This document shows positions 24,428-63,041 of a DNA stretch of 64,000 nt, piece after piece. The translations under genes were made by a program, and so were the position numbers. Numbering within the stretch: the first letter of the stretch is position 1; every line of letters starts with the position of its first letter. Source of the stretch: an uncultured Verrucomicrobiota bacterium (GTDB lineage: Bacteria; Verrucomicrobiota; Verrucomicrobiia; Limisphaerales; UBA9464); the NCBI GenBank assembly GCA_903907995.1, contig CAIVQH010000046.1, positions 1 to 64,000 of the forward strand, given 5' to 3'. The notes under the pieces were generated by a model that made no database searches, was not told where the DNA came from, and saw only the letters and a list, made by a program, of their open reading frames with translations.

Positions 24428-26137
24428 TCACAGCGCGGGATTGCGCGGGAACTTCGCGTAGGGCAGCCGCGCCCCGCGGTAGCTGAAGCGGTCAGCACGG
24501 ATGTCGAGCGGCGCGAGAAAATTCGCCGTCGCGCTGGCGGCCACGATGTCGTCCTGGTCGATGCCATCGCCGGACACACCCACCGCCCCGATCAGGACGC
24601 CGTTGCGGTATAGCGGGAAGCCGCCTGGGAAGATCGTGATGCCATTGGGCAGGTTCGGATCGAGCGGCACGCGCGCCAGCGGCAGCCGGGTCGGATCCGT
24701 GACGATGGCGTCGTTGAGCGGGTTTTGGACGTTGTAGTTGAAGTTGTCGAACCGCTCCTGCAGCCCGAGAAATATGCCCGGCTGGGTGTTGATGATGCCG
24801 GGCGGATAAAATTTCTGGGCGAGGAAACCCACGGTGCGCGAGCTAAATGCCCGGGTGTCGTCAGAGAAGAAAAGCGCGGTGCGGGCTTTCTGCGCCGCCA
24901 CGTCCCAGGAGAAACGCGTGGCGTCGGGCGAGGTGCAGAAGGTGCCGAGCACCGGCGGCGGTGCCCCGTCCTGGTTCGGATTGGCCACCACGGAGATGAA
25001 GCACTGCATCTGCCGGCCGCGCGGCAGACGGATGCCACCCCGGGTTGTGCGGGCGCGATTGGCCCCGAGGTCGAGGATGGCACGAACCTCCGCCGCAGTG
25101 AGCCGGGCCTGCCCGCGGATCGTGTCATTGGACGCATCGGCATCGTGCAATGCGGGATCGTCCATGATCGGCTGACGCAGTTCGCCATTCACGCCACCCA
25201 GGGTGAGCGGCGGATACTCGACCGGTGGCGGAGCCACAATGGGATAGGCCGGTACGGGATAGCTGACCTGGTCGAGCGGCCGGACCACCTTGGCCGGTAC
25301 CGGGTCGCTGTAGATGTAGGCGAGCGAAATGCCCCCGACAAAGACCTTGCTGCCCCAGAAACGGCGATCCGGCGCAAAACCCACCTGGCCGGCCAGGGCG
25401 ACTTCCTCGTCCACATCCGGGTCAACGACGGACTCAGGGCTGATGTTCAGTTCGTAGAAGAGGGTGTTGGTGACGAGCATGGCCACCGTCGCCTTCGTCG
25501 CACCGAAGGTGATCAGCTTCGTTTCCAGCCGTGCGCCCATGTCCTCGTCGCCGGAAACCCCAAGGCCACCGACCAGCACCCCGTTCTTGTAGAGCGGCAC
25601 TCCACCCGCAGCGCCGGTCAGGCCACCGGTAATCAGCGGCGGCAGGGCCTTGCCATTGATCCCGTTCGTCTGGGAGGGATCGTAGGTGGACGGATCCTTG
25701 AGGCGGTTGACGTCGCTGCCGCTGAGGTTCGAGAAATTGACCCCGACGAGCGGGCCGTTCGGTGCATTTTCGATCCCGACGGGGAAGTGCTGCTGCACGA
25801 TGTAGCCGGCGGTCCGGGAAGAGAAGGCGTGCTGGGAGCTGCTCAGATAGGATGCCGTGCCAGCCCGGCACATGGCGTTACGCAGCTGCGCGGCAAACGT
25901 CCGGTTGGTGGCGGAATTGGGGTCCACCGTACGCACACCCACGATGTAGCCCTCACGGTCCGCCACCGCGATGACGGCATTCTGACTGACGGGATTGTTG
26001 GTGTATTCCAGCGCCTTGCTGGCCGCCTGAGCGAGGATCTGGGCGATCTCGTTTGTGGTGAGACGCTCGGTGGCAAAAGTGCTCAGACCGGAGACGGCCA
26101 GTCCCCCGGAAAGAATTGCACAGGCAAGCCGTTTCAC
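24428..26137 (-). CDS. Tandem GlcG/HbpS haem-binding-domain protein
   Basis: A 569-residue exported protein (signal MKRLACAILSGGLAVSGLST). It contains two copies of the GlcG/HbpS (DUF336) fold. Copy one spans about residues 27-245 (AVIAVADREGYIVGVRTVDP, GGVPLYKNGVLVGGLGVSGD) and copy two about 330-540 (FISVVANPNQDG, GGFPLYRNGVLIGAVGVSGD). HbpS-type domains bind haem in some bacteria. Both copies carry a shared AFSSRTxGx insertion. The gene is divergent from the outer-membrane/multihaem operon with only 43 nt between starts, so coregulation is likely. Confidence 0.82.
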   Translation of the reverse strand: MKRLACAILSGGLAVSGLSTFATERLTTNEIAQILAQAASKALEYTNNPVSQNAVIAVADREGYIVGVRTVDPNSATNRTFAAQLRNAMCRAGTASYLSSSQHAFSSRTAGYIVQQHFPVGIENAPNGPLVGVNFSNLSGSDVNRLKDPSTYDPSQTNGINGKALPPLITGGLTGAAGGVPLYKNGVLVGGLGVSGDEDMGARLETKLITFGATKATVAMLVTNTLFYELNISPESVVDPDVDEEVALAGQVGFAPDRRFWGSKVFVGGISLAYIYSDPVPAKVVRPLDQVSYPVPAYPIVAPPPVEYPPLTLGGVNGELRQPIMDDPALHDADASNDTIRGQARLTAAEVRAILDLGANRARTTRGGIRLPRGRQMQCFISVVANPNQDGAPPPVLGTFCTSPDATRFSWDVAAQKARTALFFSDDTRAFSSRTVGFLAQKFYPPGIINTQPGIFLGLQERFDNFNYNVQNPLNDAIVTDPTRLPLARVPLDPNLPNGITIFPGGFPLYRNGVLIGAVGVSGDGIDQDDIVAASATANFLAPLDIRADRFSYRGARLPYAKFPRNPAL

Positions 26138-26180
26138 GCTGGAATCCTAGCGATGCCTTCAGTATCACAACCAGCAGAAA

Positions 26181-28625
26181 ATGCCCGTGCCTGAACAGCA
26201 TCAGCAAACCAGGTGTCCGCGCGGGACACGGGTGGGCAAGGAGCCCCCAGTTTCACCTCGCGGAAATTTTTCATCCTGGTTGCGCGTGGCGGTTTTGCTG
26301 GCGCTGGCCATGCGTGGGCAGGCGGCAGAAACGTCCGGCACCAATCGCCCGGCAAGGCCGCATCAGACGGTCAGCACGAACACTCCACCGCTCTCGCCCG
26401 CCGAACGCAACGTGGACGGCGGCGTCCCACCGGTCGGTCCCCAGCGCCGAACCCCGAACCCGCTGATCTGGGACCGGCACCGCTTCGTCAACACGAACTC
26501 CCCGGCCCGCACCCCGGATTCCTTCAACCCCGACCCCGGCGCCAAACGTGGCCAACCGCTGCCCCAGGAACCGTTCTTCCAGAATGAGCCCGGCCCGGCG
26601 GCCGGGTTCGACGGTGATCCGATCGCCCGCGAACTGCTGCTGCCCCGCTGGCAGTTGCGCCGCGACACCCTGGTACCGCGTCCGCCTCGGGAGCTGTATG
26701 ACATTTACGGCACCGAACCGCTGCCACCCGACCAGGCTCTGCCCCGAAAGGATGTCCGGTCCAACGAGTGGATCGAGTTTCAGTCGGAAGGTTCACCGAA
26801 ATATCCGCTGACCGATCAGGGCATCGGCATTCCGCCCCAGTTCACCCCGCGTCCCGACCGCTACAAGATTGGCTTCGGTTTCACGCCCTGGCGTCGCTAC
26901 ACGAGCGGCTTGAGTGAGCAGCCGTACGAACAGCCCACGCCCTACCTCTGGCATCCTTACTACCAGTCGAAGCTGAAGGGTGATTTGCCGGTCATCGGGC
27001 AGGACATCTTTCTCGATCTCACCGCCACCAGCGACACGCTCGTCGAATTCCGCAAGGTGCCCACGCCCAGCGCCGTCAGCGCCGCTCGGCCCGATTCGGC
27101 GGAGGTCTTCGGCCGGAGCGAACAGATCGGCATCCAGCAGACCTTCGGCTTCGCCGCGGAACTGTTCGAGGGTGAGACCGCCTTCAAGCCGGCGCACTGG
27201 ACCATCAAGATCCTCCCGGTGTTTAACGTGAGCTACGCGCTGGTGAAGGAGGACAACGTTCTCTCGCCCGATCCGCGCGGGATTGATGGCGGCCCCATCC
27301 GCGTGCCGCCCATCTCCGGTCCGCCCTACGCGGCCCCCGGCGGCATCGTCAACCCGTCCGACATCGGCAAGCTGCTCAACGGCCAGCTGCAGCCCCTGCC
27401 GGATTCCTTGTACGGCACGAAGTACACCGACCGCACCCGCTCGTTCTTCGCCTTGCAGGAATACTTCGTCGAGTACCACCTCGGCGACCTGTCGGATAAC
27501 TACGATTTTGTCGCGCTGAAGGCCGGCAATCAGGGCTTCAACAACGATTTTCGCGGCTTCCTCTTCAACGACGTCAATCTCGGCGGACGCCTCTTCGGCA
27601 ACTGGGGCAACAACCACTGGCAATATAACATCGCCGGGTTCGATATGCGAGAAAAGGACACCTTTTCCGGTCTGAACACCTTCAACCAGCGCAACCAGAA
27701 GGTATTTTTCGCGAATGTCTTCCGGCAGGATTTCCTGTGGACGGGCTATACGGCGCAGATGTCGCTCGCGGCCAATCTCGATGATCCCGGCACCTTTTAC
27801 GACCGCACCGGCACGCTGGTGCGACCGGCCCCGATTGGCACGGTGCGCGACCATGGCATCGAGGCGATCTACGTCGGCTGGGGCGGTGATGGGCACATCG
27901 GGCGCTGGAACGTCAGCCATCAGTTCTACCAGGCCTTCGGCAAGGACGATTTCAATCAGATCGCCGGCCACGCGGTGGACATCAACGCCCAGATGGCCGC
28001 GCTGGAGGTCAGCTACGACCGCGACTGGCTGCGCTACAAGGCGTCCTTCTTCTACGCCAGCGGCGATCACAACGTGGACGACGGCGTGGGCACCGGCTTC
28101 GACGGCATCATCGACAACCCGAACTTCACCGGCGGAGCCTTCAGCTACTATGTGCATCAGGGCCTGAACTTTGGCGGCACCGGCGTCGCGCTGAAGCAGC
28201 CGAACTCGCTCCTGCCCAACCTCCGCACCAGCAAGACGCAGGGGCAGGCAAACTTCGTGAATCCGGGCATCTTCATCTACAGCGTCGGCCTCGACATCGA
28301 CACCACGCCCAAGCTGAAGACGTTCCTTAATTTCAACTACATCCGCTTTGCCGAGACCGACGCGCTCCAGACCGTGCTGCTGGCGGACAACATCCGCCCC
28401 GAGCTGGGCTACGATCTCAGCCTGGGCTTCCAGTACCGCCCCTTGCTCACCGACAACATCATCATCACCGCCGGCATCGGCGTGCTCCTGCCCGGCGCCG
28501 GCTACCGCGACATCTACCGCCGAAGCACGGAACCCGTGCCCGGCTACTACACGGATCCGGTCCGCGCGGGCAAAGTGGACCCCGTGCTCTATAGCGGCGT
28601 GATCGCGATCAATTTCAGGTACTGA
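26181..28625 (+). CDS. Outer-membrane beta-barrel (porin-like) protein
   Basis: An 814-residue exported protein. After a signal-like stretch (LRVAVLLALAMRGQAAE) comes a Pro-rich N-terminal region (residues 50-150), then alternating amphipathic strands with many Tyr/Phe/Asn-Gly turns to the C-terminus, which ends GVIAINFRY with a terminal aromatic residue as in outer-membrane barrels. I do not recognise a named porin family. The start is uncertain: ATG 26181 gives 34 residues before the hydrophobic core, while GTG 26232 or TTG 26280 would give a normal signal peptide. First gene of the operon with the decahaem protein. Confidence 0.7.
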   Translation: MPVPEQHQQTRCPRGTRVGKEPPVSPRGNFSSWLRVAVLLALAMRGQAAETSGTNRPARPHQTVSTNTPPLSPAERNVDGGVPPVGPQRRTPNPLIWDRHRFVNTNSPARTPDSFNPDPGAKRGQPLPQEPFFQNEPGPAAGFDGDPIARELLLPRWQLRRDTLVPRPPRELYDIYGTEPLPPDQALPRKDVRSNEWIEFQSEGSPKYPLTDQGIGIPPQFTPRPDRYKIGFGFTPWRRYTSGLSEQPYEQPTPYLWHPYYQSKLKGDLPVIGQDIFLDLTATSDTLVEFRKVPTPSAVSAARPDSAEVFGRSEQIGIQQTFGFAAELFEGETAFKPAHWTIKILPVFNVSYALVKEDNVLSPDPRGIDGGPIRVPPISGPPYAAPGGIVNPSDIGKLLNGQLQPLPDSLYGTKYTDRTRSFFALQEYFVEYHLGDLSDNYDFVALKAGNQGFNNDFRGFLFNDVNLGGRLFGNWGNNHWQYNIAGFDMREKDTFSGLNTFNQRNQKVFFANVFRQDFLWTGYTAQMSLAANLDDPGTFYDRTGTLVRPAPIGTVRDHGIEAIYVGWGGDGHIGRWNVSHQFYQAFGKDDFNQIAGHAVDINAQMAALEVSYDRDWLRYKASFFYASGDHNVDDGVGTGFDGIIDNPNFTGGAFSYYVHQGLNFGGTGVALKQPNSLLPNLRTSKTQGQANFVNPGIFIYSVGLDIDTTPKLKTFLNFNYIRFAETDALQTVLLADNIRPELGYDLSLGFQYRPLLTDNIIITAGIGVLLPGAGYRDIYRRSTEPVPGYYTDPVRAGKVDPVLYSGVIAINFRY

Positions 28626-28628
28626 GCC

Positions 28629-29564
28629 ATGCGACTGAAAACGACAATGCTGTGGGCCACGCTCTCCGCGCTCTTGATGGTCGCGGTCGTCTTCCTCGCG
28701 CAAACACGCAGGGATGCCGACCCCATCCTCGCGGGCCGGCCTATCAGCCAATGGCTCGGTGTTCTGGAGAAGGGACAGGCGGCCAGTGTGGCCGACTACA
28801 ACAAGGCGTATGATGTCCTGTTCGAAACCACCAATCACCGGGCCGCCTTGCAGGCCCAGATTCTGGATCGGATCGAAGCCGCGTATTCGCCCTCGGCCAA
28901 ATTGTGGCAGCAGGCCTATGCTTCGCTTCCAGCCAAAGTGAGCGCCCGTCTTCCCCAACCCCGTTTCGGCCATATCAATCCCCAGACCGTCCTTTTGCTG
29001 GATGGGATCATGCCGGAACCGTCGCCGCGGCAGCGCGCCGCCATTGAAAAACTGCTCGGCGATACTTCGCCCGACAATAGCTGGCTGATCTCCTCCGCCC
29101 TACGGGTGGGCCTGTCGCCATCGACCCAAACCGTTCCCGACGCCATGGCCCTGTTACGGCAGCAGCTTGCTGCCGCTTCCCCCAACCGACGCTTTCTGGT
29201 TTGCGGGACCATCTGCAATCAGCACGGCCTTGAAGGCTGGCGCAACCACCGGGAGGTTCTGTCCGGCTTGGTTGCCGACCTGTGGAAACTCACCACCGCC
29301 CCCATCGGTATCGATGGCCGTGAAGCGGCGCGCCGGGCCCTGGACAGGCTCCCGCGTGATCTAGAAAACTTGGGATCGGCCGCCGCCCCGCCCCTCCGTG
29401 ACACCTCACCCGAAAGTCCCCGGCTCCCAACCACCCTGTTCGACAATCCGGTCCATTCCGCCCATCGGACGCTGGCGTTGGAGGCACCCGAGACGGCGTC
29501 AAATCTCAGTCTGCAACTGGCACCGACAGTGCCAGCCGCTTGGACGGACACCTCCGATCCATGA
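28629..29564 (+). CDS. Single-span anchored periplasmic protein, unknown
   Basis: A 311-residue protein with one N-terminal hydrophobic anchor (MLWATLSALLMVAVVFLAQT) and a soluble, mostly helical remainder that I cannot assign. The segment ILAGRPISQWLGVLEKGQA resembles the start of small helical-repeat proteins in PVC genomes (GRPxxxWL), which is weak. It starts 3 nt after the barrel gene stop and ends 29 nt before the cytochrome start, so it belongs to that operon and may assist assembly or anchoring. Confidence 0.65.
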   Translation: MRLKTTMLWATLSALLMVAVVFLAQTRRDADPILAGRPISQWLGVLEKGQAASVADYNKAYDVLFETTNHRAALQAQILDRIEAAYSPSAKLWQQAYASLPAKVSARLPQPRFGHINPQTVLLLDGIMPEPSPRQRAAIEKLLGDTSPDNSWLISSALRVGLSPSTQTVPDAMALLRQQLAAASPNRRFLVCGTICNQHGLEGWRNHREVLSGLVADLWKLTTAPIGIDGREAARRALDRLPRDLENLGSAAAPPLRDTSPESPRLPTTLFDNPVHSAHRTLALEAPETASNLSLQLAPTVPAAWTDTSDP

Positions 29565-29593
29565 TTTTCTCCACTCCCTTTCCCCGCCGCCCC

Positions 29594-32500
29594 ATGAGAA
29601 TCACCTCAGCCACTTCGGCCGCCCGATTCCTCGGCTGCATCGCTTCCCTGATGCTGTTGCTCAGCGCGCGCGCCGAGTCGCCCCTGCTCGCCTATCTCGC
29701 CGCCAATGGCCCGGAGATTTCCGTCCCGACGGAGCTGCCGAAGCCGGCCCCGACAAAAGCCCGCAACCGCGTGGACCAGACCAAGGAGGAGGCTTTCGCC
29801 AAGTCCCGAGGCTGCCTCGAATGCCACAAGACCACCGACGCGCATTCGATGCACACCTCCCCCTTCGTAGCGCTCGGTTGCACGGACTGCCACGGTGGCA
29901 ATCCCGCCCCCGGCCTGACGGAACGCAAGGCGCACGTCCCGCCCCGCAACCCGGTCTTCTGGGAATCCTCGGCGAATCCGAATGAGTCCTCCGTGCTGCT
30001 CAACCACGAATCGGCGGAGTTCATCCAGTTCGTCAATCCCGGTGACCTCCGGGTGGCCGACCAGACCTGCGGGCTCTGCCACGGCGACAGCGTTGCCCAT
30101 GTCCGCAGCAGCATCATGCGCCACGGGGCGATGCTTTGGGGGGCGGCGCTCTACAACAACGGTGCCTATTCGCAGAAGAACTACCGCTACGGCCAGGCCT
30201 ACGGCCTCGATGGCGTGGGGCTCCGCCTGGAAAGCCCCGTTCCCGTCACGACCAACATGACGAGGCTCTGGGGCATCCTGCCGTACATCGAGCCGCTGCC
30301 GCGCTTCGTGAACGGCCAGCCGAGCAACATCCTCCGCATCTTTGAAAAGGGCGGTGAAGAGCAGCTCCAGCTCGGGGACCCGAACATTCTCGAACCGCCC
30401 GGCAAACCGGGCCGCCGCCTGAGCGAACGCGGCCTCGGCACCCTGCTCCGTACCGACCCGGTGTTCCTCAATCTCCAGAAGACCCGCCTGCACGATCCGC
30501 TGCTCGACTTCATGGGCGGCAATGACCATCCGGGCGACTACCGCTCCAGCGGCTGTTCGGCCTGCCATGTCGTCTATGCGAACGACCGCTCGCCCACGCA
30601 CTCCGACTACTACGCCAAGTACGGTCACCAGGGCCTCTCCTTCAGCGCCGATCCCACGATCCCGAAGAACGAGCGCGGCCACCCGATCAAGCACGTCTTC
30701 ACGCGCTCGATCCCGACGGCGCAGTGCATGAACTGCCACATGCACCAGGGAAACCTCTTCGTGAATCCCTTCCTCGGTTATACGTGGTGGGACCAGGAAA
30801 CCGACGGGGAGTTCATGTATCCGGCGAAGCAGAAGAACCCGACCGAGACGGAAATGTTCGCCTCGAACCGGGAGAACCCCGAGTCCGCCGCCGCCCGCGG
30901 CCTGTGGAGCGACAAGGACTTCCTCGACAAGGTCGCCGAGCTGAACCCGCAGCTGAAGCATACGCAGTTCGCCGACTACCATGGCCACGGCTGGATCTTC
31001 CGCGCCATCTTCAAGCGCGACAAACAGGGCGAACTGCTGGACCTCCAGGACAACGTCATTCCGCACGATGACGACCACAAGTGGGAGAAGGCGATCCACC
31101 TCAAGGACGTCCATCTCGCCCGGGGCATGCACTGCGTGGACTGCCACTTCCTCCACGACATGCACGGCAATGGCCTGCTTTACGGCGAACCGCGCGCGGT
31201 CACCGCCATCGAATGTGTGGATTGCCACGGCACGGTGAATTCCCGCCCCTCGCTGGTCACCAGCGGTAGCGGCGGCCCCTTCAACCCGCAGACGCAGAAG
31301 CAGGAGAGCATCGACCTGCTCAAGACCAGCAACACGCCGTGGGGTGCCCGCTTCCGCTGGGAAGGCAAGAAGCTCATCCAGCGCAGCGCGCTCGCACCCG
31401 ACCGCGAATGGGAGGTGCCGCAGGTCGTGGACACGATCGATCCGAAGTCGCCGCGCTACAACGCGAAGAGCGCGTACGCGAAGACCCTCCGTCGTGACGG
31501 CAAGAACTGGGGCGACGTCCCCGGTGGCGTGAAGGACATGGACGTCGCGAACCGGAACCCGTTAAAGGAGGACCGCACCACCGAGTGCGCCCGCGAACTC
31601 GCACACGACAACTCGAACGTGAGCTGTCAGATCTGCCACACCTCCTGGGCCACAAGCTGCTTTGGCTGTCACCTGCCCATGCGCGCCAATCAGCGCGTCG
31701 CCGCCAACAAGGACGAGGGCACGATGACCCGCAACTACACGACTTATAATCCGCAGGTCGTGCGCGACGACGTCTTCCAGCTCGGCATTGACGCCACCTA
31801 CAAGGGCCATCGCCTTGGAGTGTTGCGCTCCTCCAGCGCCGTCATCGTCGGCTCTCAGAATGCCAACCGCGAATGGGTCTATTCCCAGCAGCAGACGGTC
31901 AGCGCGGAAGGTTACAGCGGGCAGGCCTTCAATCCGCACTTCCCGCACACCACCGGCTCGGTGGGCACGACCAAGAACTGCACCGAATGCCACCTCGCGC
32001 AAGACAACAGCAACAATGCCTGGATGACGCAGTTGCTCGGCTTCGGTACCGGCACCGTCAATTTCTTCGGGCGCTACAGCTACGTCGGAGCCGGCCCCGG
32101 CGGGCTCTATGGCGTCGTCTGGACCGAGCGCGAGGAGCCGCAAGCCGCCTACGGCAGCCACCTGCACCACCTCGCCTACCCCGATAACTTCCGCGAGCAC
32201 ATGGAGAAGAACGGCGGCATCCTCAAGGAGTCATATCATCACGAGGCGGCCGACATCCTCGATCTCACGCAGCGCGGTGAATACCTCTACACCGCCAACG
32301 GGCCTGACGGCTTCCAGGTCTTCGACATCGCGAACATCGACAACAAGGGCTTCAGTGAACGCATCACCACCGCTCCGGTCAGCCCGCTGGGCCAGCGGCT
32401 CTGGGTACGCACGAAGTTCGCGACGAGTGTCACCCTGCCCACGACCCTCGGTGTGGATCCGCTGCGCCAGCCGTACCCGGCCAGCGAGAAGCATCCCGAG

Positions 32501-33571
32501 TTTGGCGACATTTACTCTGGCAACGAGGAGCAGCCCATCGGCCTGAACTACGCCTTCGTGTATGTCACCGACCTCGAGGAAGGCCTGGTCATGCCGGTCG
32601 TCGGCACGCTCGTGGACGGCAATCCGGACAACAACTTCTTCGACGGCAAGAACCCGGTCATCCGCTTCAATCCCGACGGCAAGCTGACCGGAGCGATGCA
32701 CAGCTATATGGCCGGCAACCACCTGTTCGTGGTCGGCAAGAACGGCCTGTTCACCGTGCGCCTGCTCAAGGACGGCAAGCCCGCGCCGGAGATTGTGGGG
32801 GAGCTCGCCGCCGGCCTGAAAAACCCGCACGCCATCGCCGTGCAGTTCCGCTACGCCTTCATCAGCGACGACGAGGGCGTCAAGGTGGTGGACATCTCCG
32901 CGCCTACCCAGCCGAAGCTGCTCGCCACCGTGCCGCTCGCCCACGCGGGCCGCCTCTATGCGGCCCGCACCTATCTCTATGTGCCGGATGGTTCCGAAGG
33001 CCTCGCGATCGTGGACATCCAGAACCCGGAGAAGCCGGCGCTGGTCGAGCACTTCACTGCCGACGGCGCGATCAATGACGCCCGGGCCGTCCAGATCGGC
33101 AGCATCAGCGCCTCGATGTATGCACTGGTCGCGGATGGCAAGAACGGCCTCCGGGTGGTGCAGATGATCTCGCCGGAAAACGTGCCCGGCCACTACGGCT
33201 TCAGCCCGCGCCCGAATCCGAAGCTCATTGCGACCTTCCCGACCGGGAAACCCGCCGTGGCCGTCAGCCGCGGTTTGGACCGCGACCGCGTGGTGGACGA
33301 AAGCGGCGGCCAGACGGTCGTCTTCGGCCGGCGCGGCAGCCGCCCCTTCAACGAGGAGGAGTTCGGCCTCCTGCTCCGCCATCTCGATCCGACCAGCGGC
33401 AAGCACACCGGCGCGACCTACGCCGTGGAAGACCTCACCAACAAGGAACCGGCGGCCAAGACCAAGTCGGGCGTCGAACTCAAACCGACACTCGAATTCA
33501 AGGGCGAGCCCGAAACCAAGGTGGCGCAGCACGTTCCCCTGGAACGACTGGTCAGGAGGGGACACGAATGA
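29594..33571 (+). CDS. Decahaem cytochrome c fused to LVIVD beta-propeller
   Basis: A 1325-residue exported protein (signal FLGCIASLMLLLSARAES). Ten CXXCH haem-binding motifs start at residues 74, 96, 159, 321, 378, 514, 541, 678, 689 and 796. From about residue 880 the protein changes to LVIVD-type propeller repeats, such as YLYTANGPDGFQVFDIANID, YAFISDDEGVKVVDISAP and YLYVPDGSEGLAIVDIQNP. It should carry electrons across or at the outer membrane. The start at 29594 opens the signal peptide; the upstream ATG at 29540 would overlap the preceding gene. Length and domain order differ from MtrA/OmcS-type cytochromes. Confidence 0.88.
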   Translation: MRITSATSAARFLGCIASLMLLLSARAESPLLAYLAANGPEISVPTELPKPAPTKARNRVDQTKEEAFAKSRGCLECHKTTDAHSMHTSPFVALGCTDCHGGNPAPGLTERKAHVPPRNPVFWESSANPNESSVLLNHESAEFIQFVNPGDLRVADQTCGLCHGDSVAHVRSSIMRHGAMLWGAALYNNGAYSQKNYRYGQAYGLDGVGLRLESPVPVTTNMTRLWGILPYIEPLPRFVNGQPSNILRIFEKGGEEQLQLGDPNILEPPGKPGRRLSERGLGTLLRTDPVFLNLQKTRLHDPLLDFMGGNDHPGDYRSSGCSACHVVYANDRSPTHSDYYAKYGHQGLSFSADPTIPKNERGHPIKHVFTRSIPTAQCMNCHMHQGNLFVNPFLGYTWWDQETDGEFMYPAKQKNPTETEMFASNRENPESAAARGLWSDKDFLDKVAELNPQLKHTQFADYHGHGWIFRAIFKRDKQGELLDLQDNVIPHDDDHKWEKAIHLKDVHLARGMHCVDCHFLHDMHGNGLLYGEPRAVTAIECVDCHGTVNSRPSLVTSGSGGPFNPQTQKQESIDLLKTSNTPWGARFRWEGKKLIQRSALAPDREWEVPQVVDTIDPKSPRYNAKSAYAKTLRRDGKNWGDVPGGVKDMDVANRNPLKEDRTTECARELAHDNSNVSCQICHTSWATSCFGCHLPMRANQRVAANKDEGTMTRNYTTYNPQVVRDDVFQLGIDATYKGHRLGVLRSSSAVIVGSQNANREWVYSQQQTVSAEGYSGQAFNPHFPHTTGSVGTTKNCTECHLAQDNSNNAWMTQLLGFGTGTVNFFGRYSYVGAGPGGLYGVVWTEREEPQAAYGSHLHHLAYPDNFREHMEKNGGILKESYHHEAADILDLTQRGEYLYTANGPDGFQVFDIANIDNKGFSERITTAPVSPLGQRLWVRTKFATSVTLPTTLGVDPLRQPYPASEKHPEFGDIYSGNEEQPIGLNYAFVYVTDLEEGLVMPVVGTLVDGNPDNNFFDGKNPVIRFNPDGKLTGAMHSYMAGNHLFVVGKNGLFTVRLLKDGKPAPEIVGELAAGLKNPHAIAVQFRYAFISDDEGVKVVDISAPTQPKLLATVPLAHAGRLYAARTYLYVPDGSEGLAIVDIQNPEKPALVEHFTADGAINDARAVQIGSISASMYALVADGKNGLRVVQMISPENVPGHYGFSPRPNPKLIATFPTGKPAVAVSRGLDRDRVVDESGGQTVVFGRRGSRPFNEEEFGLLLRHLDPTSGKHTGATYAVEDLTNKEPAAKTKSGVELKPTLEFKGEPETKVAQHVPLERLVRRGHE

Positions 33572-33600: not shown

Positions 33601-34270
33601 GGCCCGGAGGGCCTGCGGAACTTAGCCCCGGGCATCGCCCGGGGTTCCAGCGTACCCTTTTTGTTTTGCACCCCGGAGGGGTGCCGGAACCTGTGACCCA
33701 ACCCGGCCATGCCTTCCACGTACCTCTCTCTTAACTATCATCTGGTGTTTTCCACTAAGGATCGTCGCCCATGGATTGACGCGGCGTGGCGGGAGCGACT
33801 GCATGCATATCTGGGCGGTTGCATAAAAACCTCAGGCGGCCTTCCTGACGCCGTAGGCGGTGTAGCCGATCATGTCCACTTCCTCGTTGGCCTTCGCGCC
33901 ACCCACCGCTTGTGTGACGTGCTGGAGGAAATCAAACGTGAATCCTCGAAATGGATCCATCGCGAGCTTGGTCTGCGTGAGTTCGCTTGGCAGGAAGGTT
34001 ATGCGCCGATTACGGTGAGTCCGGGATTGCGAGCGAAGGCAAAGCGATACATCGCCCGACAGGAAGCGCATCACCGCAAGCTTACGCTCATCGAGGAACT
34101 CCGGGATTTCTTGGCCAAGGCGGAAATCGAATACAGCGAGAAATATCTGCTATGAATCGAAATTGCGATTCACGAGAGCCCATTTCCCGCACCCCTCCGG
34201 GGGGCGGGGTTATTATCTACCGGTTTCCGGGGGCGTTGCCCCCGGCTAAGTTCCGCCGCACCTCCGGCGC
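33601..34270. mobile_element. REP/RAYT-type element with palindromic flanks
   Basis: A Y1 transposase gene flanked by GC-rich palindromes. The left side has GGCCCGGAGGGCC (33601-33613), GCCCCGGGCATCGCCCGGGG (33624-33643) and CACCCCGGAGGGGTG (33669-33683). The right side has CCCGCACCCCTCCGGGGGGC (from 34187), CCGGGGGCGTTGCCCCCGG (34227-34245) and CTAAGTTCCGC (34246-34256). The outer copies are inverted: GCGGAACTTAGCC occurs at 33615-33627 and, reversed, around 34244-34256. This is the layout of RAYT transposases with their REP sequences. Confidence 0.75.
33709..34155 (+). CDS. REP-associated tyrosine transposase (IS200-like Y1)
   Basis: A 148-residue protein of the IS200/IS605 TnpA Y1 superfamily. 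The HUH motif occurs as DHVHFLVGL (residues about 55-63) and the catalytic Tyr in the C-terminal helix as KRYIARQEAHHRK. The N-terminus YLSLNYHLVFSTKDRRPW is typical. The length matches a full-length protein with no frameshift, so it may be functional. It lies inside the palindromic element. The next frame on the same strand begins 3 nt before its stop. Confidence 0.85.
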   Translation: MPSTYLSLNYHLVFSTKDRRPWIDAAWRERLHAYLGGCIKTSGGLPDAVGGVADHVHFLVGLRATHRLCDVLEEIKRESSKWIHRELGLREFAWQEGYAPITVSPGLRAKAKRYIARQEAHHRKLTLIEELRDFLAKAEIEYSEKYLL

Positions 34271-35597
34271 GAAGAATGTTTCGTCCAGCCGTTTTGGGAT
34301 TCACGTCGACTTTCCAAATCAACGCACCTTTACCCCGACGAGTTCGCTCCTCACCATCCTGTTACTCCTTTTCCTCCCTTCCGCCTTCGCGAGCGACTCC
34401 GTGCGCACGCTGGCCGGCTCGGCGCAGATGAGCGCCTACCTGGACGGCCCCGGAGCGAATGCGCGTTTCGCCGACCCCGTCGGGCTCGCGCTGGATTCAG
34501 CGGGCAACGTCTTCATCGCCGATTCGGCCAACCACTGCCTGCGGCAACTGACGCCCGCCGGCAATGTCACCACCTTCGCCGGACGCCCGGGTGACTTCGG
34601 CTCGGATGACGGCGGCACCGGCTTCGCCCGCTTTGACACGCCTTCGGCGCTGGCCGTGGCGCGGGATGGCACGCTGTTCATCAGCGACACCGGCAATAAC
34701 ACCATCCGCCGTCGCGATCCGAATGGCACGGTCACCACCTTCGCCGGTTTCGCGGGCACTCCCGGCTCAACCAATGGCGTCGGGTCCGTTGCCCGCTTCA
34801 ATGCCCCGCTCGGCCTGGCGTTGGCAGGAAATAGCGACCTGTTCGTGGCCGATTCCGGCAACCACGCCATCCGGCGCATCACCAGCGACGGCAACGTCAC
34901 GACGTTTGCCGGCGGCCTCGAACAATGGGGCGCCGCGGACGGCAAGGGCGAACAGGCCCGCTTCAACGGCCCCGTCGGACTCGTGTTCGACAAGGTGGGC
35001 AACCTCCTCGTCGCGGACTCCTTCAATCACGCCATTCGCAAGATCGCTCCCGACGGCACCGTGACCACGCTCGCAGGGCGATTAGGCGAAGACGGCTTCG
35101 CGGATGGTCGCGCCGCTGACGCCCGCTTTGGGGCGCCGGCCGAACTGGCCTTCGACCCCAACGGCAACCTCTTCATCACCGATGGCTGGTACGATACGCT
35201 GCGCAAGATCACGCCGGATGGCACGGTCTCGACCGTCGCCGGTCTGGTGGGTAACGAGGGCAGTGCCGACGGCAGCTACGGCGGCGCCCGGTTCTTCAAT
35301 CCCTACGGCCTCGTCGCCACGCCCACCGGCTCATTAATCGTAAGCGACACCTACAACGAGCTCATCCGCGAAGTCATCACCCCCTTCACGCTGTCGGCCA
35401 AACGGACGGCCAATTCGCCCACCGTCATCCGCTGGGAAAGCATTGCCGGACGCACCTACCGCGTGCTCGTTCGTGACTCCCTCTCCGCGCCGTGGCAGCC
35501 ACTGGGCACGGATCTGAAAGCGATCGGAGCTACAGCCGAATCAACCGACTCGGCGACTATTGCAATGCGTTTCTATCAGGTGGATCGCCTGGATTAA
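34152..35597 (+). CDS. Secreted NHL-repeat beta-propeller protein
   Basis: The frame encodes up to 481 residues. The reliable part begins with a signal peptide (LLTILLLLFLPSAFAS, about 34347-34395) followed by six NHL-type units of about 55 residues with the pattern ARF-x-P-x-GLA-x-D-x-x-GN-x-F-x-ADS-x-NH-x-IR. It ends in a short C-terminal sandwich (TVIRWESIAGRTYRVLVRDS). The start is not certain. The only in-frame ATG (34152) lies inside the transposase gene end and the palindromes, so the N-terminal 60 or so residues would be translated repeat. The native start was probably displaced by insertion of the RAYT element. Confidence 0.7.
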   Translation: MNRNCDSREPISRTPPGGGVIIYRFPGALPPAKFRRTSGAKNVSSSRFGIHVDFPNQRTFTPTSSLLTILLLLFLPSAFASDSVRTLAGSAQMSAYLDGPGANARFADPVGLALDSAGNVFIADSANHCLRQLTPAGNVTTFAGRPGDFGSDDGGTGFARFDTPSALAVARDGTLFISDTGNNTIRRRDPNGTVTTFAGFAGTPGSTNGVGSVARFNAPLGLALAGNSDLFVADSGNHAIRRITSDGNVTTFAGGLEQWGAADGKGEQARFNGPVGLVFDKVGNLLVADSFNHAIRKIAPDGTVTTLAGRLGEDGFADGRAADARFGAPAELAFDPNGNLFITDGWYDTLRKITPDGTVSTVAGLVGNEGSADGSYGGARFFNPYGLVATPTGSLIVSDTYNELIREVITPFTLSAKRTANSPTVIRWESIAGRTYRVLVRDSLSAPWQPLGTDLKAIGATAESTDSATIAMRFYQVDRLD

Positions 35598-58012: not shown

Positions 58013-59491
58013 CTACTTCGCCGCCGTGTGAACCTCGGCGGCGGAGGGCGGCACATTCAGTCCGGCCACCGCCTGCTTCGCCGTCCGAACGAGGGCGTTG
58101 GGGCAGATGCCCAGATAGAATACACCGACGACACAGAGGACCACAGCCAGCCGGGTCGCCCCACCGACCGCGATCGGCGTCAGGTCGGTCGCGTTGCGGG
58201 GCCAGAACATCGCCCGCACAACCCCGAAGTAGTAGTAGATCGAGAGGACCACGCCCACGCACGCAACCAGCAGCGCGAGGAGGAACATCTTGTCAGTGCC
58301 GATGTGCGCGGCCACGGCCTTGAGCAGCAGAAATTTGCCAAAAAAGCCCGCCAGAGGCGGGATGCCGGCCAGACTGACCATGGCCACCGTCAGGCCGGTC
58401 GCCAGCAGCGGCGAACGCTGCCCGAGGGCGGCGAAGGCGCTGACATCATCGCTTTCGGTGCGGTTGACCACCACGTTGATGACCGCAAAGCCGGCCAGCA
58501 CGGTGAAGATGTAGCCGCCAAGATAGGAGAGCACCGCCGTACCGCCGCTCAGGCTCGCTGCGGCCACACCGAGAAGCAGATAGCCGGCATTGGCAATGGA
58601 GCTGTAACCCATCAGGCGCTTCACGCTTCGTTGCGGGATAGCGCAAAGGCTGCCGTAGAGAATGGTCACGATGCCCAGGCCGAGGATCAGCCGGCTCCAG
58701 TGGGCGGTGATGTCGGGCACCGCGCCGAAGGCAACGCGCAGCAGCAGCGCAAAGCCGGCGGCCTTGGAGCCGGTTGCCAGAAAGGCGGTCGTGGTGGCCG
58801 GCGCGCCCTGATAGACATCAGGGGCCCACATCTGGAACGGGAACGCAGCGATCTTGAAGCCGAGGCCGACCACCGTCAGCAGCAGGCCAACGAGGAAAAT
58901 GGGCGATTTTGCCAGTTCCGTCTGCTTAGCCGCGATCTCGTAGAAGTTGGTCGTGTTGGCCGCGCCGAAGATGAAGGCGATGCCGAACACCATGAAGCCC
59001 GACGCCAGTGCCCCGAGAATGAGGTACTTCACACCAGCTTCCAACGAGCCAAGGCGGCCGCGTGAGAAGCTGACCAGGATGTAGAACGTGACCGTGATCA
59101 GTTCGAGCGCGACGAACATCAGGATGAAATCGTTGGCCGAGGCGGCAAACAGCATGCCCACCGCCGCGAAGATCGTGAGCGCGCAATACTCGGCATAGCC
59201 GACCAGGGTCTCCGAGGACTCGATCGACATCAGCAGCACCACAAGCGTGGCGAGCAGGAAGAACCCCTTGAAGTAGTTCGACATGGCATCCACGACGAAC
59301 ATGCCGCCGAAGGCGGTGCCATCCGCCGGGGCGCCGGAACCGAGCGCGTAGGTGAGCAGGATGGCCACCCCGGTCGCTGCGACGTAGCCGAGCAGCTTGC
59401 GGGCGGACGCCGGCAGCCAGAGGTCGGCCAGCAGCACGCCGACGCCGAGCAGCGTGGCCAGAATTTCAACGGTCAGCAGCGAGTAGTTCAT
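58013..59491 (-). CDS. nuoN: NADH-quinone oxidoreductase subunit N
   Basis: A 492-residue antiporter-like membrane subunit of complex I. Signatures are MFVALELITVTFYILVSFSR followed by LGSLEAGVKYLILGALASGF, and FPFQMWAPDVYQGAPATTTA. About 14 membrane spans are expected. It is the last gene of the minus-strand nuo run, 28 nt after nuoM. Function: proton pumping driven by quinone reduction. Confidence 0.95.
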   Translation of the reverse strand: MNYSLLTVEILATLLGVGVLLADLWLPASARKLLGYVAATGVAILLTYALGSGAPADGTAFGGMFVVDAMSNYFKGFFLLATLVVLLMSIESSETLVGYAEYCALTIFAAVGMLFAASANDFILMFVALELITVTFYILVSFSRGRLGSLEAGVKYLILGALASGFMVFGIAFIFGAANTTNFYEIAAKQTELAKSPIFLVGLLLTVVGLGFKIAAFPFQMWAPDVYQGAPATTTAFLATGSKAAGFALLLRVAFGAVPDITAHWSRLILGLGIVTILYGSLCAIPQRSVKRLMGYSSIANAGYLLLGVAAASLSGGTAVLSYLGGYIFTVLAGFAVINVVVNRTESDDVSAFAALGQRSPLLATGLTVAMVSLAGIPPLAGFFGKFLLLKAVAAHIGTDKMFLLALLVACVGVVLSIYYYFGVVRAMFWPRNATDLTPIAVGGATRLAVVLCVVGVFYLGICPNALVRTAKQAVAGLNVPPSAAEVHTAAK

Positions 59492-59519
59492 CGCGGGGCG
59501 AAAACGGGGTTCGGCAGGT

Positions 59520-61052
59520 TCAATGGGCGGTGTTCATCGCCGTGGCGGTCGGCGTGTGGGCGGCTTCGGTGGCCGGGGATTTGGCGGCGGCGGCCTTCAC
59601 CACCTCCGCGACCGCGGGCTTGATGCGCTCAACCAGCGAGCCGGGGTTGACCCCAAAATAAATCAGCGCGCCGAGCAGCACGAGGAACGGCAGCTTGCGC
59701 CAGCAGCCGGCATCCTCCACCCGGGTGAACTCGGCCTTCACCGGGCCGTGCAGCACGGTACGGATGGCGCGCAGCATGTACACGCCGCCGATGAGCAAAC
59801 CGCCCCAGGCGGCCACCACCACAAAGCCGGGCAGCGTCTTCCACACGCCGAACATCACGGTGATCTCACCGGGGAAATTCGCGAAGCCGGGCAGGCCGCA
59901 GCCCGCCATCAGCGCGGCCACCAGTGCGGCCCCGATGAACGGAAGCGGACGCAACAGACCGCCGAGCCTGTCCATGTCGCTCGTGCCAGTGACCTTCACC
60001 AGGTGGCCGAGGAGGCCGAAGCTCAGCGCCGCCAGCAGGCCGTGCGCGACCATGATGAGCACCACACCGGTCACGCCAATGACGCTCACGCTGGCCAGGC
60101 CCAGGAAGCAGAAGCCCATGTGCGCGAGGCTGGAGTTACCGAGCAGCAGCGCGAGGTCGCGTTGGCGCATCGCCACCCAGCCGCAATAGATGATGTTGCC
60201 GAGGCAGAGCCACGCGATCACCGGCGCCCATTGGGCGAGGCCATCGGGCAGCAGCGGCAGGGCGACGCGGATGAGCGCATAGAGGCCAACCTTCTTGAGC
60301 ACCCCCGAGTGCATCATCGCCGTCGCGGTGGGCGCGGCGGCATAGCCGGGAGCCGCCCACGAATGGAACGGCCAGAGTCCGACCAGAGTGCCGAAGCCGA
60401 AGAGCAGCAGCGGGAAGATCAGTGCCTGCACCTGATGGCTCATCGGCTTTTGGGCCAGCCACGCCTTGAGCACGACGATGTCGAGGGTGTTCGCGCCGGA
60501 CAGGCCGTAGAGCGCGATCAGGCCGGTCAGCGCGACGAGCGCACCCAGCGTGAGGTACAGTGTGATCTGGAAGGTCGCGTAGTTCTTCTGCTCACCCCGG
60601 CCCCAGAGGCCCATCATCAGGAACGTCGGCACGAGGGCCAGTTCATTGAAGAAGTAGAGGAAGAACAGGTCCAGCGAGACAAACGCGCCGATGGCCCCGC
60701 CGGTCATCAGCAGCAGGAGGATATAGAAGAGCTTGGGCTGCCGCTCGATGTCCCACGAGACGCAGGTCGCGGCGAAAGCCACCAGCGAGGCCATGAGCAC
60801 GAGACCGACGTTCAGACCATCCAATCCGACGTGATAGCTGAGGCCGGCGGCGGGAATCCAGGCAGTGTGCTGTTCGAACTGGAAATCGGCCACGCCCGGA
60901 TGGAACGCGGTGAACAGGCAAATCGACCCGATGGCGATGACCGCCGTGGTGAGCAGCGCGATGAGCCGGATGATGACCCGGTAGTTGCCGGGCACGAGCA
61001 GCACGAGGAGCGCGCCGACGAAGGGCGTTAGCAGAAGTGAAGTGAGTGACAT
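59520..61052 (-). CDS. nuoM: NADH-quinone oxidoreductase subunit M
   Basis: A 510-residue complex I antiporter-like subunit. Family signatures are LYFFNELALVPTFLMMGLWG, WPFHSWAAPGYAAAPTATAM and LKKVGLYALIRVALPLLPD, with the conserved Glu (FNE) and Lys residues of the proton channel. A short Ala/Pro/Thr tail follows the last span. It lies 15 nt after nuoL. Confidence 0.95.
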   Translation of the reverse strand: MSLTSLLLTPFVGALLVLLVPGNYRVIIRLIALLTTAVIAIGSICLFTAFHPGVADFQFEQHTAWIPAAGLSYHVGLDGLNVGLVLMASLVAFAATCVSWDIERQPKLFYILLLLMTGGAIGAFVSLDLFFLYFFNELALVPTFLMMGLWGRGEQKNYATFQITLYLTLGALVALTGLIALYGLSGANTLDIVVLKAWLAQKPMSHQVQALIFPLLLFGFGTLVGLWPFHSWAAPGYAAAPTATAMMHSGVLKKVGLYALIRVALPLLPDGLAQWAPVIAWLCLGNIIYCGWVAMRQRDLALLLGNSSLAHMGFCFLGLASVSVIGVTGVVLIMVAHGLLAALSFGLLGHLVKVTGTSDMDRLGGLLRPLPFIGAALVAALMAGCGLPGFANFPGEITVMFGVWKTLPGFVVVAAWGGLLIGGVYMLRAIRTVLHGPVKAEFTRVEDAGCWRKLPFLVLLGALIYFGVNPGSLVERIKPAVAEVVKAAAAKSPATEAAHTPTATAMNTAH

Positions 61053-61067
61053 GGTCGGGTTCGGCGC

Positions 61068-63041
61068 TTACTTCAGCTTCAGGGCGATCATCACCACCAC
61101 CGCCACGCCGGCGGCGAACATGAAGGTGTAGGTCTGGAGGTTGCCGGTCTGGGCCAGCCGCAGGGCGCGACCGACCAGTTCGGTGGAACCGTGGACGCCG
61201 CGAATGATCAGGCCGCTCACGATCCAGCGGTCAAACCAGTCGGCCAGGCGGGCCAGCATGTCGTGCAACGGCACGAGCACACCGTCGTAAATCTCATCAA
61301 AATAGAAGCGGTTCTTCATGGCCCGACCGATCAGGCCCAGCTGGCCGGGCAGCGGGTCTTTGGGGACATTCCAGTAAACCCCAAAGGCGGCGGCAGCGCC
61401 GAAGAGCAGCGCGCCGGTGCCGAAGGTCGCGGCCAGCGGGGCATGGTTGAAGGGACCGAAGATCCCGCCGCCCTCATGCGGGTGGAAGTGCGGGTTGAAA
61501 TGGGCGGAAAGGAAATCGCCGAGCGGCAGCCAGGCGATGGCAATGCTGGGCACGGCCAGGACGATCAACGGCCAGATCATCGAGTTCGGCGATTCATGCG
61601 CGTGACTGGCGGCCCCGGTGCGGGGCGCACCGAAGAAGGCGACGATGACGAGACGCAGCATGTAGAACGTGGTCATCGCGGCCACGATCACACCCAAGCC
61701 GAAAAGCACCGGATGCCCGCCCGTGATTGCGGCGTCGAGGATTGCATCCTTGGAATAGAAGCCGCTCGTGAGAATTGGGAGACCGGCCAGCGCGGCGGTG
61801 CCAATGGCAAAGGTGCGGAAGGTCACCGGCAGTTTGTTCCAGAGGCCGCCCATCTTCCAAATGTCCTGCTCATGGTGGCAGGCGTGGATGACCGAGCCGG
61901 CCCCGAGGAACAGCAGCGCCTTGAAACCCGCGTGGGTCGTCAGGTGATACATCGCCGCGTCCGGTCCGCCGCAGCCCACGGCCATCACCATGTAGCCGAG
62001 CTGGGAAAGCGTCGAATAGGCGAGGATGCGCTTGATGTCGTTCTGCTGGATCGCAATCAGCGCGGCGAGCAACGCCGTGAAGCCGCCAATCACGGCGATG
62101 ATGTCCAAGGCGGAAATGCTGCCCAGGAAGGAAAGTGGCGCAGGCCAGGCAGCCGGCACCTGATAGAGGAAGAACGTCCGGCAGAGCATGTAAACGCCGG
62201 CGGCCACCATCGTCGCGGCATGGATAAGCGCGGATACGGGCGTGGGGCCTTCCATCGCGTCCGGCAACCAGACGTGCAGCGGGAACTGCGCGCTCTTGCC
62301 CATGGCGCCGCAGAAGACCAGCAGACCGGCGATCGAAGCCATCGAACCGAGCGCGGTCGGGTCCGCCCCAAGCTTGTGCGCGATCCCGGCGAAGCTCACC
62401 GAGCCGGTCGCCGCCCAGACCATGAGGATGCCGATCAGGAAGCCGAAGTCGCCGATGCGGTTCGTGAGAAAGGCCTTCTTCGCGGCGTCGCCGGCCGAGG
62501 GTTTCTCGTACCAAAAGCCGATGAGCAGGTAGCTGGAGAGACCGACCAGCTCCCAGAACACGAACATCATCACGAAATTGTCCGCGAGCACGATGCCGAG
62601 CATCGAGAAGGTGAAGAGGCTCAGGCTCGAAAAGAAGCGGCTGAAACTGCGGTCGCCGTGCATGTAGCCGGTGCTGTAGATCTGGACCAGGGCCGACACG
62701 CCGGTGACCACGAGCAGCATGAGCACCGAAAGCCGGTCCACCGTCACCCCCAGGTTCACGTTCAGGTCGCCGACGTGGATCCAGGAGAATGGCGTTGTGA
62801 CCGTAGCCTCGCCACCAATGCCGAAGGTGATGAACAGCCCGACGCTCAGGAAGAAAGCGGCCAGGACCGCCCCGATGGAGAACACGGCCGAGAGCACGTT
62901 GCTCTTCCGAACGAAAAAGGCGATGCCCGCCGCGGCGATCAGCGGCAGCAGCAGAATGAACCAGGCCAGATCCTCCGGCCGGGAGCTGAAGGCCGGCGCG
63001 GCGGCGCTGATGGCGTTGTGGGCGTTATGGGCGTGTTCCAT
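61068..63041 (-). CDS. nuoL: NADH-quinone oxidoreductase subunit L
   Basis: A 657-residue complex I subunit, the largest antiporter-like one. Signatures are FVFWELVGLSSYLLIGFWYE and the proton-channel block HVWLPDAMEGPTPVSALIHA followed by ATMVAAGVYM. The C-terminal lateral helix expected after residue 550 is consistent with the length. It lies 6 nt after nuoK and 15 nt before nuoM. Confidence 0.95.
   Translation of the reverse strand: MEHAHNAHNAISAAAPAFSSRPEDLAWFILLLPLIAAAGIAFFVRKSNVLSAVFSIGAVLAAFFLSVGLFITFGIGGEATVTTPFSWIHVGDLNVNLGVTVDRLSVLMLLVVTGVSALVQIYSTGYMHGDRSFSRFFSSLSLFTFSMLGIVLADNFVMMFVFWELVGLSSYLLIGFWYEKPSAGDAAKKAFLTNRIGDFGFLIGILMVWAATGSVSFAGIAHKLGADPTALGSMASIAGLLVFCGAMGKSAQFPLHVWLPDAMEGPTPVSALIHAATMVAAGVYMLCRTFFLYQVPAAWPAPLSFLGSISALDIIAVIGGFTALLAALIAIQQNDIKRILAYSTLSQLGYMVMAVGCGGPDAAMYHLTTHAGFKALLFLGAGSVIHACHHEQDIWKMGGLWNKLPVTFRTFAIGTAALAGLPILTSGFYSKDAILDAAITGGHPVLFGLGVIVAAMTTFYMLRLVIVAFFGAPRTGAASHAHESPNSMIWPLIVLAVPSIAIAWLPLGDFLSAHFNPHFHPHEGGGIFGPFNHAPLAATFGTGALLFGAAAAFGVYWNVPKDPLPGQLGLIGRAMKNRFYFDEIYDGVLVPLHDMLARLADWFDRWIVSGLIIRGVHGSTELVGRALRLAQTGNLQTYTFMFAAGVAVVVMIALKLK

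Follow-up and report, generated by a model that had tools for sequence, protein, structure and literature searches.

The DNA analysed here (the window) is a stretch of 64,000 nucleotides from contig CAIVQH010000046.1 of an uncultured Verrucomicrobiota bacterium. It contains a locus coding for a secreted tandem GlcG/HbpS-like protein, a putative outer-membrane beta-barrel protein (P0002), a single-span protein (P0003) and a c-type cytochrome, P0004, that combines ten CXXCH motifs with an LVIVD beta-propeller (Table 1). The GlcG/HbpS and barrel genes are divergent, with 43 nt between their starts; for P0004 the ATG at 29594 was adopted as start, the first start codon in frame being a TTG at 29540. 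A preliminary description of this DNA had listed the tandem GlcG/HbpS protein, the 43-nt divergence, the barrel gene and the single-span and ten-CXXCH LVIVD proteins, and both coordinates and domains agree with it. The genes it named are indeed found in the window; the system to which they seem to belong reaches far outside this locus, with its second half on another contig. With a probability of about 0.6, the window genes represent the outer-membrane portion of an electron-transfer chain that spans the cell envelope.

Table 1. Genes and predicted features of the locus (positions in the window)
Feature	Position	Strand	Remarks
Tandem GlcG/HbpS-like protein, secreted	24428..26137	-	569 aa, GTG start, PF03928 in two stretches
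Outer-membrane beta-barrel protein P0002	26181..28625	+	814 aa, long Pro-rich N-terminal tail, last residue Y
18 predicted transmembrane strands of P0002	27006..28619	+	residues 276-813, AlphaFold2
Single-span protein P0003, function unassigned	28629..29564	+	311 aa; residues 6-24 form its one hydrophobic span
Decahaem c-type cytochrome with LVIVD beta-propeller, P0004	29594..33571	+	1325 aa
Ten-CXXCH span of P0004	29813..31993	+	residues 74-800
Predicted beta-propeller of P0004	32075..33238	+	about residues 828-1215, AlphaFold2

The CXXCH motifs of P0004 start at residues 74, 96, 159, 321, 378, 514, 541, 678, 689 and 796; in 2000 shuffles of its residues the mean number expected by chance was 0.0145 and the maximum 2. 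Alignment of the window protein with 40 sequences chosen from 80 fetched relatives (A4) revealed nine of the motifs in 41/41 and the first one in 40/41, together with 13 further His residues kept in at least 38/41, a number sufficient for ligation of all ten haems. When all 80 fetched cytochrome open reading frames (ORFs) are considered, cut ones included, ten CXXCH motifs are present in 58 and fewer in 22. The LVIVD family (PF08309) is matched with 53.9 bits against a cut-off of 20.2, and Cytochrom_c3_2 is also matched. In an AlphaFold2 model of residues 28-1223 the propeller is mostly confident, with some low stretches, and propeller folds head the Foldseek matches listed for this model; for the haem part, the model contains no haem and is of low confidence, and its shape is therefore not interpreted here. 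Sequence search of the PDB with P0004 gave weak haem-motif matches only, and no relative was found in phages at E <= 1e-10. The ExtM model (NF040943) reaches 51.4 bits over 51 residues, below its curated cut-off of 800.

P0002 has no Pfam match, Alginate_exp (PF13372) included, and a sequence search of the PDB with it returned nothing useful. AlphaFold2 modelling from a 55-sequence alignment (A3; mean pLDDT 73.8) predicts 18 long strands, mostly of high confidence, preceded by the Pro-rich tail at low confidence. Among the fold matches listed by Foldseek and VIA-align, AlgE is nearest to the model (12% identity, Z 30.1, rmsd 2.9 Å over 361 residues), with OprD/Occ porins also in leading places; thus the proposal that the 814-residue protein is a transmembrane barrel agrees with the modelling, which points to an AlgE/OprD-type fold. 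MtrB is not among the 50 fold matches listed, which is not counted as its exclusion. The A3 barrels end in Y (37/55) or F (18/55), and 9/55 match CarboxypepD_reg at E <= 0.01. No P0002 relatives were found on viral contigs by a pattern scan. The single natural link of the barrel to haem is found in an acidobacterial metagenome-assembled genome (MAG), where a barrel homologue (L100:5695-8016) carries in the same frame an N-terminal c3-type domain with four CXXCH motifs; it is the only one of the 55 A3 barrels with such motifs. A further fusion of barrel and cytochrome, suspected in L058 from a long overlapping frame, was rejected on the same count.

When GTDB contigs were scanned with the alignment of the cytochrome, at least 543 relatives were confirmed among 592 stretches, and the best 80 of them were fetched for analysis. 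According to their record titles, these comprise Verrucomicrobia, Acidobacteria, Rokubacteria, Binatia, Deltaproteobacteria, Planctomycetota and Ignavibacteriae MAGs; together with plasmids of Sphingobium and Sphingopyxis, these show that the system, described at first in a PVC setting, is not limited to that group. Leaving aside eight of the 80 loci with less than 600 nt upstream of the cytochrome, the barrel gene is directly upstream of it in 68/72, and the conserved gene order that had been predicted is therefore observed. In the other four the rule failed for different reasons: in L076 the barrel overlaps an over-extended start, in L103 it is on the other strand, and L071 and L111 have none. 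By title, 26 loci fall outside Verrucomicrobiota (L108 is titled only 'bacterium', and L078, titled Proteobacteria, was kept with Verrucomicrobiota); 25 of them have upstream sequence and 24/25 a barrel match. Divergence of the barrel parallels that of the cytochrome (Mantel r 0.904, with 0/999 permutations as high, on 66 loci, namely the 63/80 passing length and score filters, the window and two plasmids), a correlation which is expected for linked genes. Among 387 Verrucomicrobiota genomes, the barrel occurs in 11, the window's own included, and it is these 11 that also contain the haem part of P0004.

The other two genes of the locus are less constant. A GlcG homologue is found somewhere nearby in 33/42 relatives for which 5 kb or more is available on each side, and a divergent GlcG gene adjoins the barrel in 26/53 loci with a barrel and at least 4.5 kb upstream; GlcG is also present in both plasmid operons read. 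In the window protein PF03928 reaches 68.1 bits against a cut-off of 25. Haem binding, attributed to this partner at the outset on the strength of the family name, should not be assumed, since no His is invariant across 28 aligned relatives. A lipobox pattern occurs in 8/31 GlcG copies, all acidobacterial by title (L090, L091, L094, L095, L096, L098, L107 and L109), its position in L091 differing from that of a LASC box visible by eye; in the Sphingobium plasmid copy a LSSC box is seen by eye, both plasmid copies being outside the 31-copy scan. As for P0003, its homologue was found in 1/80 loci, the closest relative L069 (96% identical), and in none of the ten loci L024-L033. It was thus dropped as a core part and, judging from these sequences, is probably lineage-specific; of the operon proposed as a unit, the barrel/cytochrome pair stands and the single-span protein does not.

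The presumed inner-membrane half is found in the window's own genome as a complete cluster on contig C19, at about 275.5-282.3 kb. It codes for a tetrahaem c554-type cytochrome, a FAD/NAD/2Fe-2S flavoprotein, a cNMP/4Fe-4S protein, an inner-membrane protein (IMP) and a membrane-anchored decahaem cytochrome, dh570. The window locus and this cluster each lie no more than about 35 kb from the end of a contig; inner-half genes are also found in the barrel neighbourhood of many relatives. Of the 42 loci that have 5 kb on each side, 25 contain dh570, and the genes for IMP, cNMP-FeS protein and tetrahaem cytochrome are each found in 21. A strong IMP match occurs in 17/387 Verrucomicrobiota genomes, all 11 barrel genomes being among them; this count leaves out 8/25 matches (E 2e-8 to 2e-10) that cover part of the profile only. 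Counted by genome, the co-occurrence has a hypergeometric probability of 2e-17, and counted by genus one of 1e-11, with kinship not modelled. The redox role assigned to the locus from the start is supported by the conserved haem motifs and the linked inner-membrane electron-transfer genes.

IMP homologues are characterized by two WX3HX13H motifs (18/19) and by SGXXG (17/19), both present in the window genome's copy, whose hydropathy profile has four regions (about 5-27, 36-56, 102-126 and 255-273), the His-bearing third helix being under threshold. At E <= 0.01 Ferric_reduct is matched by 2/19 and DUF4405 by 3/19; a sequence search of the PDB with IMP gave no match. Directly upstream of IMP lies the cNMP/4Fe-4S gene (L131:12023-13747, minus strand), whose product matches PF13247 with 38.4 bits against 26.2. 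The ten haem motifs of dh570 are invariant in 19/19 homologues. Before the membrane span of dh570 (L131:9517-11193) a Cys-rich N-terminal stretch is found in 8/9 aligned Verrucomicrobiota copies (A6); it is not present in acidobacterial copies, and FHA-like matches occur there in the Sphingobium copy. The c554-type homologues of at least 900 nt contain three CXXCH plus one CX4CH in 16/25 and four plus one in 7/25, and no separate pentahaem gene recurs in the loci L024-L033. The cytosolic input seems to be variable: in Verrucomicrobiota an FNR-like protein is encoded beside the cNMP-FeS protein, in Sphingobium the latter is fused to a pyridine-nucleotide oxidoreductase (Pyr_redox), and Fer2_4-type N-termini were found in 5/9 other cNMP proteins scanned (L086, L088, L089, L103 and L109). 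Three Cytochrom_C_asm matches are present in the window's genome.

Barrel and cytochrome were also found on 13/72,556 plasmid records, 12 from Sphingobium and one from Sphingopyxis; 11 of these plasmids are predicted to be non-mobilizable and two conjugative. The conjugative-typed pMSHV of Sphingobium herbicidovorans MH carries seven genes of the set together: c554-type cytochrome, GlcG, barrel and decahaem-LVIVD cytochrome in this order, with decahaem, IMP and cNMP/FeS genes on the other strand. On Sphingopyxis indica pMC4, also typed conjugative, c554-type, GlcG, barrel and decahaem-LVIVD genes are found. A dh570 query matched only the 12 Sphingobium records, and an acidobacterial IMP gave no tblastn match on plasmids; profile A5 does find IMP on pMSHV, so that misses with a single IMP sequence mean little. 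Sphingobium herbicidovorans MH is a culturable soil bacterium, and the presence of the seven genes on its plasmid makes the putative outer-membrane electron transfer by non-Mtr porin-cytochrome loci directly testable. The electron-transfer genes of pMSHV are flanked by ShlB/FhaC-type secretion genes and by a gene for a 2092-aa protein without Pfam match (L145:797-8950, 28410-30089).

Other genes were noted around the window locus. Shortly past the P0004 gene there is an IS200-like transposase (Y1_Tnp, PF01797; 33709-34155), and an NHL-repeat protein is encoded at 33987-35597; a homologue with 36% identity is likewise encoded beside the cytochrome gene of L027. At 58013-63041 lie three consecutive genes for complex I/Mrp-type antiporter subunits.

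The proposed chain builds on gene content, domains, conserved haem and His motifs, linkage, co-occurrence and the predicted barrel; from these we infer an order of carriers, a NAD(P)H partner, a contact between barrel and cytochrome, access to the surface, a direction and a substrate. Electrons from cytosolic NAD(P)H would enter through the FAD/NAD/2Fe-2S protein in Verrucomicrobiota, and through other flavin or Fe-S modules elsewhere, and would be passed from the flavin module to the cNMP-domain 4Fe-4S protein. The latter may reduce two b haems of IMP, whose existence is suggested by the paired His motifs, and these in turn would deliver electrons to the membrane-anchored dh570 and to the tetrahaem c554-type cytochrome. 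Next, dh570 could exchange electrons with the decahaem-LVIVD cytochrome, presumably docked on the 18-strand barrel, and this complex would transfer them to, or receive them from, a substrate present at the outer membrane or beyond it. As to the nature of this substrate, one may guess at humic substances or metal oxides, which would suit the members from anoxic lakes and peat and would suit Sphingobium less well.

A number of observations weigh against an envelope-spanning chain of this kind. The calculated C-alpha radius is 16.5-17.2 Å for 18 strands versus 23.5-24.1 Å for 26, and a threaded haem wire as in MtrAB is unlikely in so narrow a barrel; the Mtr-like arrangement initially put forward is thus doubtful for the AlgE/OprD-type barrel that is modelled. 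No lipobox is seen by eye at the end of the N-terminal hydrophobic stretch of P0004, as inspected in the window protein. The LVIVD propeller might, as first suggested, replace a separate surface cytochrome, but this depends on which side of the membrane P0004 occupies. The cytochrome of L111 has no detected barrel, and in L071 no barrel lies within 1.7 kb upstream. Six genomes (L133-L138) contain IMP without barrel or P0004; a dh570 homologue is near IMP in L133, L134, L136, L137 and L138, and in L135, for which the ORF list is thinned, IMP only was found. In pMC4 the inner half was not seen in the 32 kb read, nor was a dh570 match on the whole plasmid. Moreover, Sphingobium is aerobic, which weakens an interpretation as anaerobic respiration. 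Eighteen spans are in themselves compatible with a conduit, since Geobacter ExtB is described with this number in the text of PMC6148476. Separately, next to the tetrahaem gene of L137 there is a gene for a 485-aa protein with F as last residue, which may be another outer-membrane partner.

The main rival starts from the barrel fold. P0002 might be an AlgE/OprD-type solute channel and P0004 a multihaem enzyme of the periplasm that reduces or oxidises a soluble compound entering through this channel, with the same inner-membrane feed, so that electrons would never cross the outer membrane. AlgE and OprD-family folds do head the structure list, 5/55 A3 barrels match Alginate_exp at E <= 0.01 (best 6.7e-5), and in the text of PMC5877670 the reduction of selenite and tellurite is linked to ExtI, a porin of Geobacter. 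An enzymatic function is also hinted at by the A4 profile, which matches octahaem nitrite reductase, but the match is weak (E 0.002) and limited to one haem region of about 50 residues. The L100 barrel with its fused four-CXXCH domain argues for the chain, and the 13 spare His residues, sufficient for bis-His ligation of ten haems, would fit electron transfer better than catalysis; on balance the solute channel appears unlikely, though it deserves serious attention. The same fold led us to consider a polymer exporter like AlgE, the closest fold, with cytochromes that modify the polymer or merely hitch-hike. The barrel, however, co-varies with the cytochrome down to the same set of Verrucomicrobiota genomes, and its recurring neighbours in ten loci are GlcG and redox genes, the non-recurring ones being mostly unannotated; such an export function is therefore very improbable.

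Two other alternatives leave the chain itself in place. Its direction may be inward, with Fe(II), Mn(II) or another donor outside the cell or at the outer membrane feeding quinone or NAD+ through the barrel complex; this version of the chain is possible, with somewhat better prospects than the solute channel. The aerobic soil Sphingobium hosts are in line with it, and so is PCC4, which has the same inner-membrane signature and is proposed, in the text of PMC5566968, to work inward in Fe(II) oxidisers. Conversely, palsa, bog, fen, Baikal or Erken appears in the titles of 11/80 records, and in such habitats reduction is no less likely; the flavin module, too, could equally well serve an outward flow. 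It is most improbable, finally, that the system is simply the published porin-multihaem system of freshwater Verrucomicrobia, for which the text of PMC5615132 describes a porin beside a cytochrome with eight conserved haem sites. The phylum is the same, and strain IMCC26134, named there, does have a window-type locus (L059); about 170 kb away, however, it has a separate locus that fits the description better in haem number. There (L125:4423-9271, at 2.59 Mb) a NapC-like hexahaem cytochrome, an octahaem-type cytochrome (269 aa, with seven CXXCH and one CX4CH by eye) and a 763-aa protein with no detectable similarity to P0002 are encoded in a row, and this may be the system of He et al. 2017 mSphere. 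The octahaem-type cytochrome has no match in the window's genome at E <= 1e-5, in a search without positive control.

Tentatively, and with less confidence than the chain itself, the data can be extended to a distinct class of envelope-spanning chains, modular, sometimes plasmid-borne and present, judging from record titles, in six phyla or more. In such a class a conserved cNMP-domain 4Fe-4S hub would be fed by cytosolic modules of NAD(P)H or ferredoxin type that can replace one another, and contact with the outer membrane would be made by a decahaem-propeller cytochrome seated on an AlgE-type barrel of 18 strands, joined in some hosts by a GlcG lipoprotein; it would serve aerobes as well as anaerobes and would lack the threaded wire of Mtr. 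If the proposed chain is right, many uncultured Verrucomicrobiota, Acidobacteriota and their relatives carry a complete and recognisable route from cytosolic NAD(P)H to the outer membrane, one that is probably overlooked when Mtr, Omc or Cyc2 models are used for searching. In a search of open-licence PubMed Central text no description of the barrel/decahaem-LVIVD pair was found, and neither LVIVD nor alginate export was found to occur jointly with multiheme cytochrome; LVIVD repeats do occur together with a cytochrome in a paper on Methanosarcina. The pair is likewise unmentioned in the available text of PMC11475568, PMC7399161, PMC6344600 and PMC12133095; the 76 unnamed cytochrome and 42 accessory families of PMC11475568 could include it.

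Comparison with known systems reveals both likenesses and differences. With AlgE and OprD porins P0002 shares the barrel fold, and the strand number of these porins is the same; to our knowledge they have no redox partner. MtrCAB, MtoAB and PioAB resemble the window locus in linking an outer-membrane barrel to a decahaem cytochrome, but MtrB has 26 strands (text of PMC12133095) as opposed to the 18 modelled in P0002. The Geobacter ExtABCD, ExtEFG and ExtHIJKLMNOPQS systems, as described in the text of PMC6148476 and PMC5877670, also pair non-Mtr barrels with multihaem cytochromes, the last cluster having its own cytochrome b as well; their cytochromes and surface proteins are different from those found here. 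The published Verrucomicrobia cluster is similar in having a porin gene beside multihaem genes in freshwater Verrucomicrobia, and differs in its eight haem sites from the decahaem protein of the window (text of PMC5615132). The closest likeness is to PCC4, proposed by He et al. 2017 Front Microbiol, for which the text sections of PMC5566968 describe, in Planctomycetes too, a porin, 4-, 5- and 10-haem cytochromes, an IMP with five transmembrane helices, two WX3HX13H motifs and SGXXG, and in subgroup II a PF13247 Fe-S protein upstream of IMP. Porin, 10-haem and 4-haem cytochromes, the IMP motifs and the position of the PF13247 protein all recur here, and since the inner half matches these published features, the system is not clearly an independent version of such a conduit, as it was first presented. 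Conversely, neither the tandem GlcG protein nor a second decahaem cytochrome fused to an LVIVD propeller appears in those text sections. Thus, compared by published features rather than by sequences, and with membership unproven, the system resembles a PCC4-like variant in which a decahaem-propeller cytochrome is combined with an 18-strand barrel.

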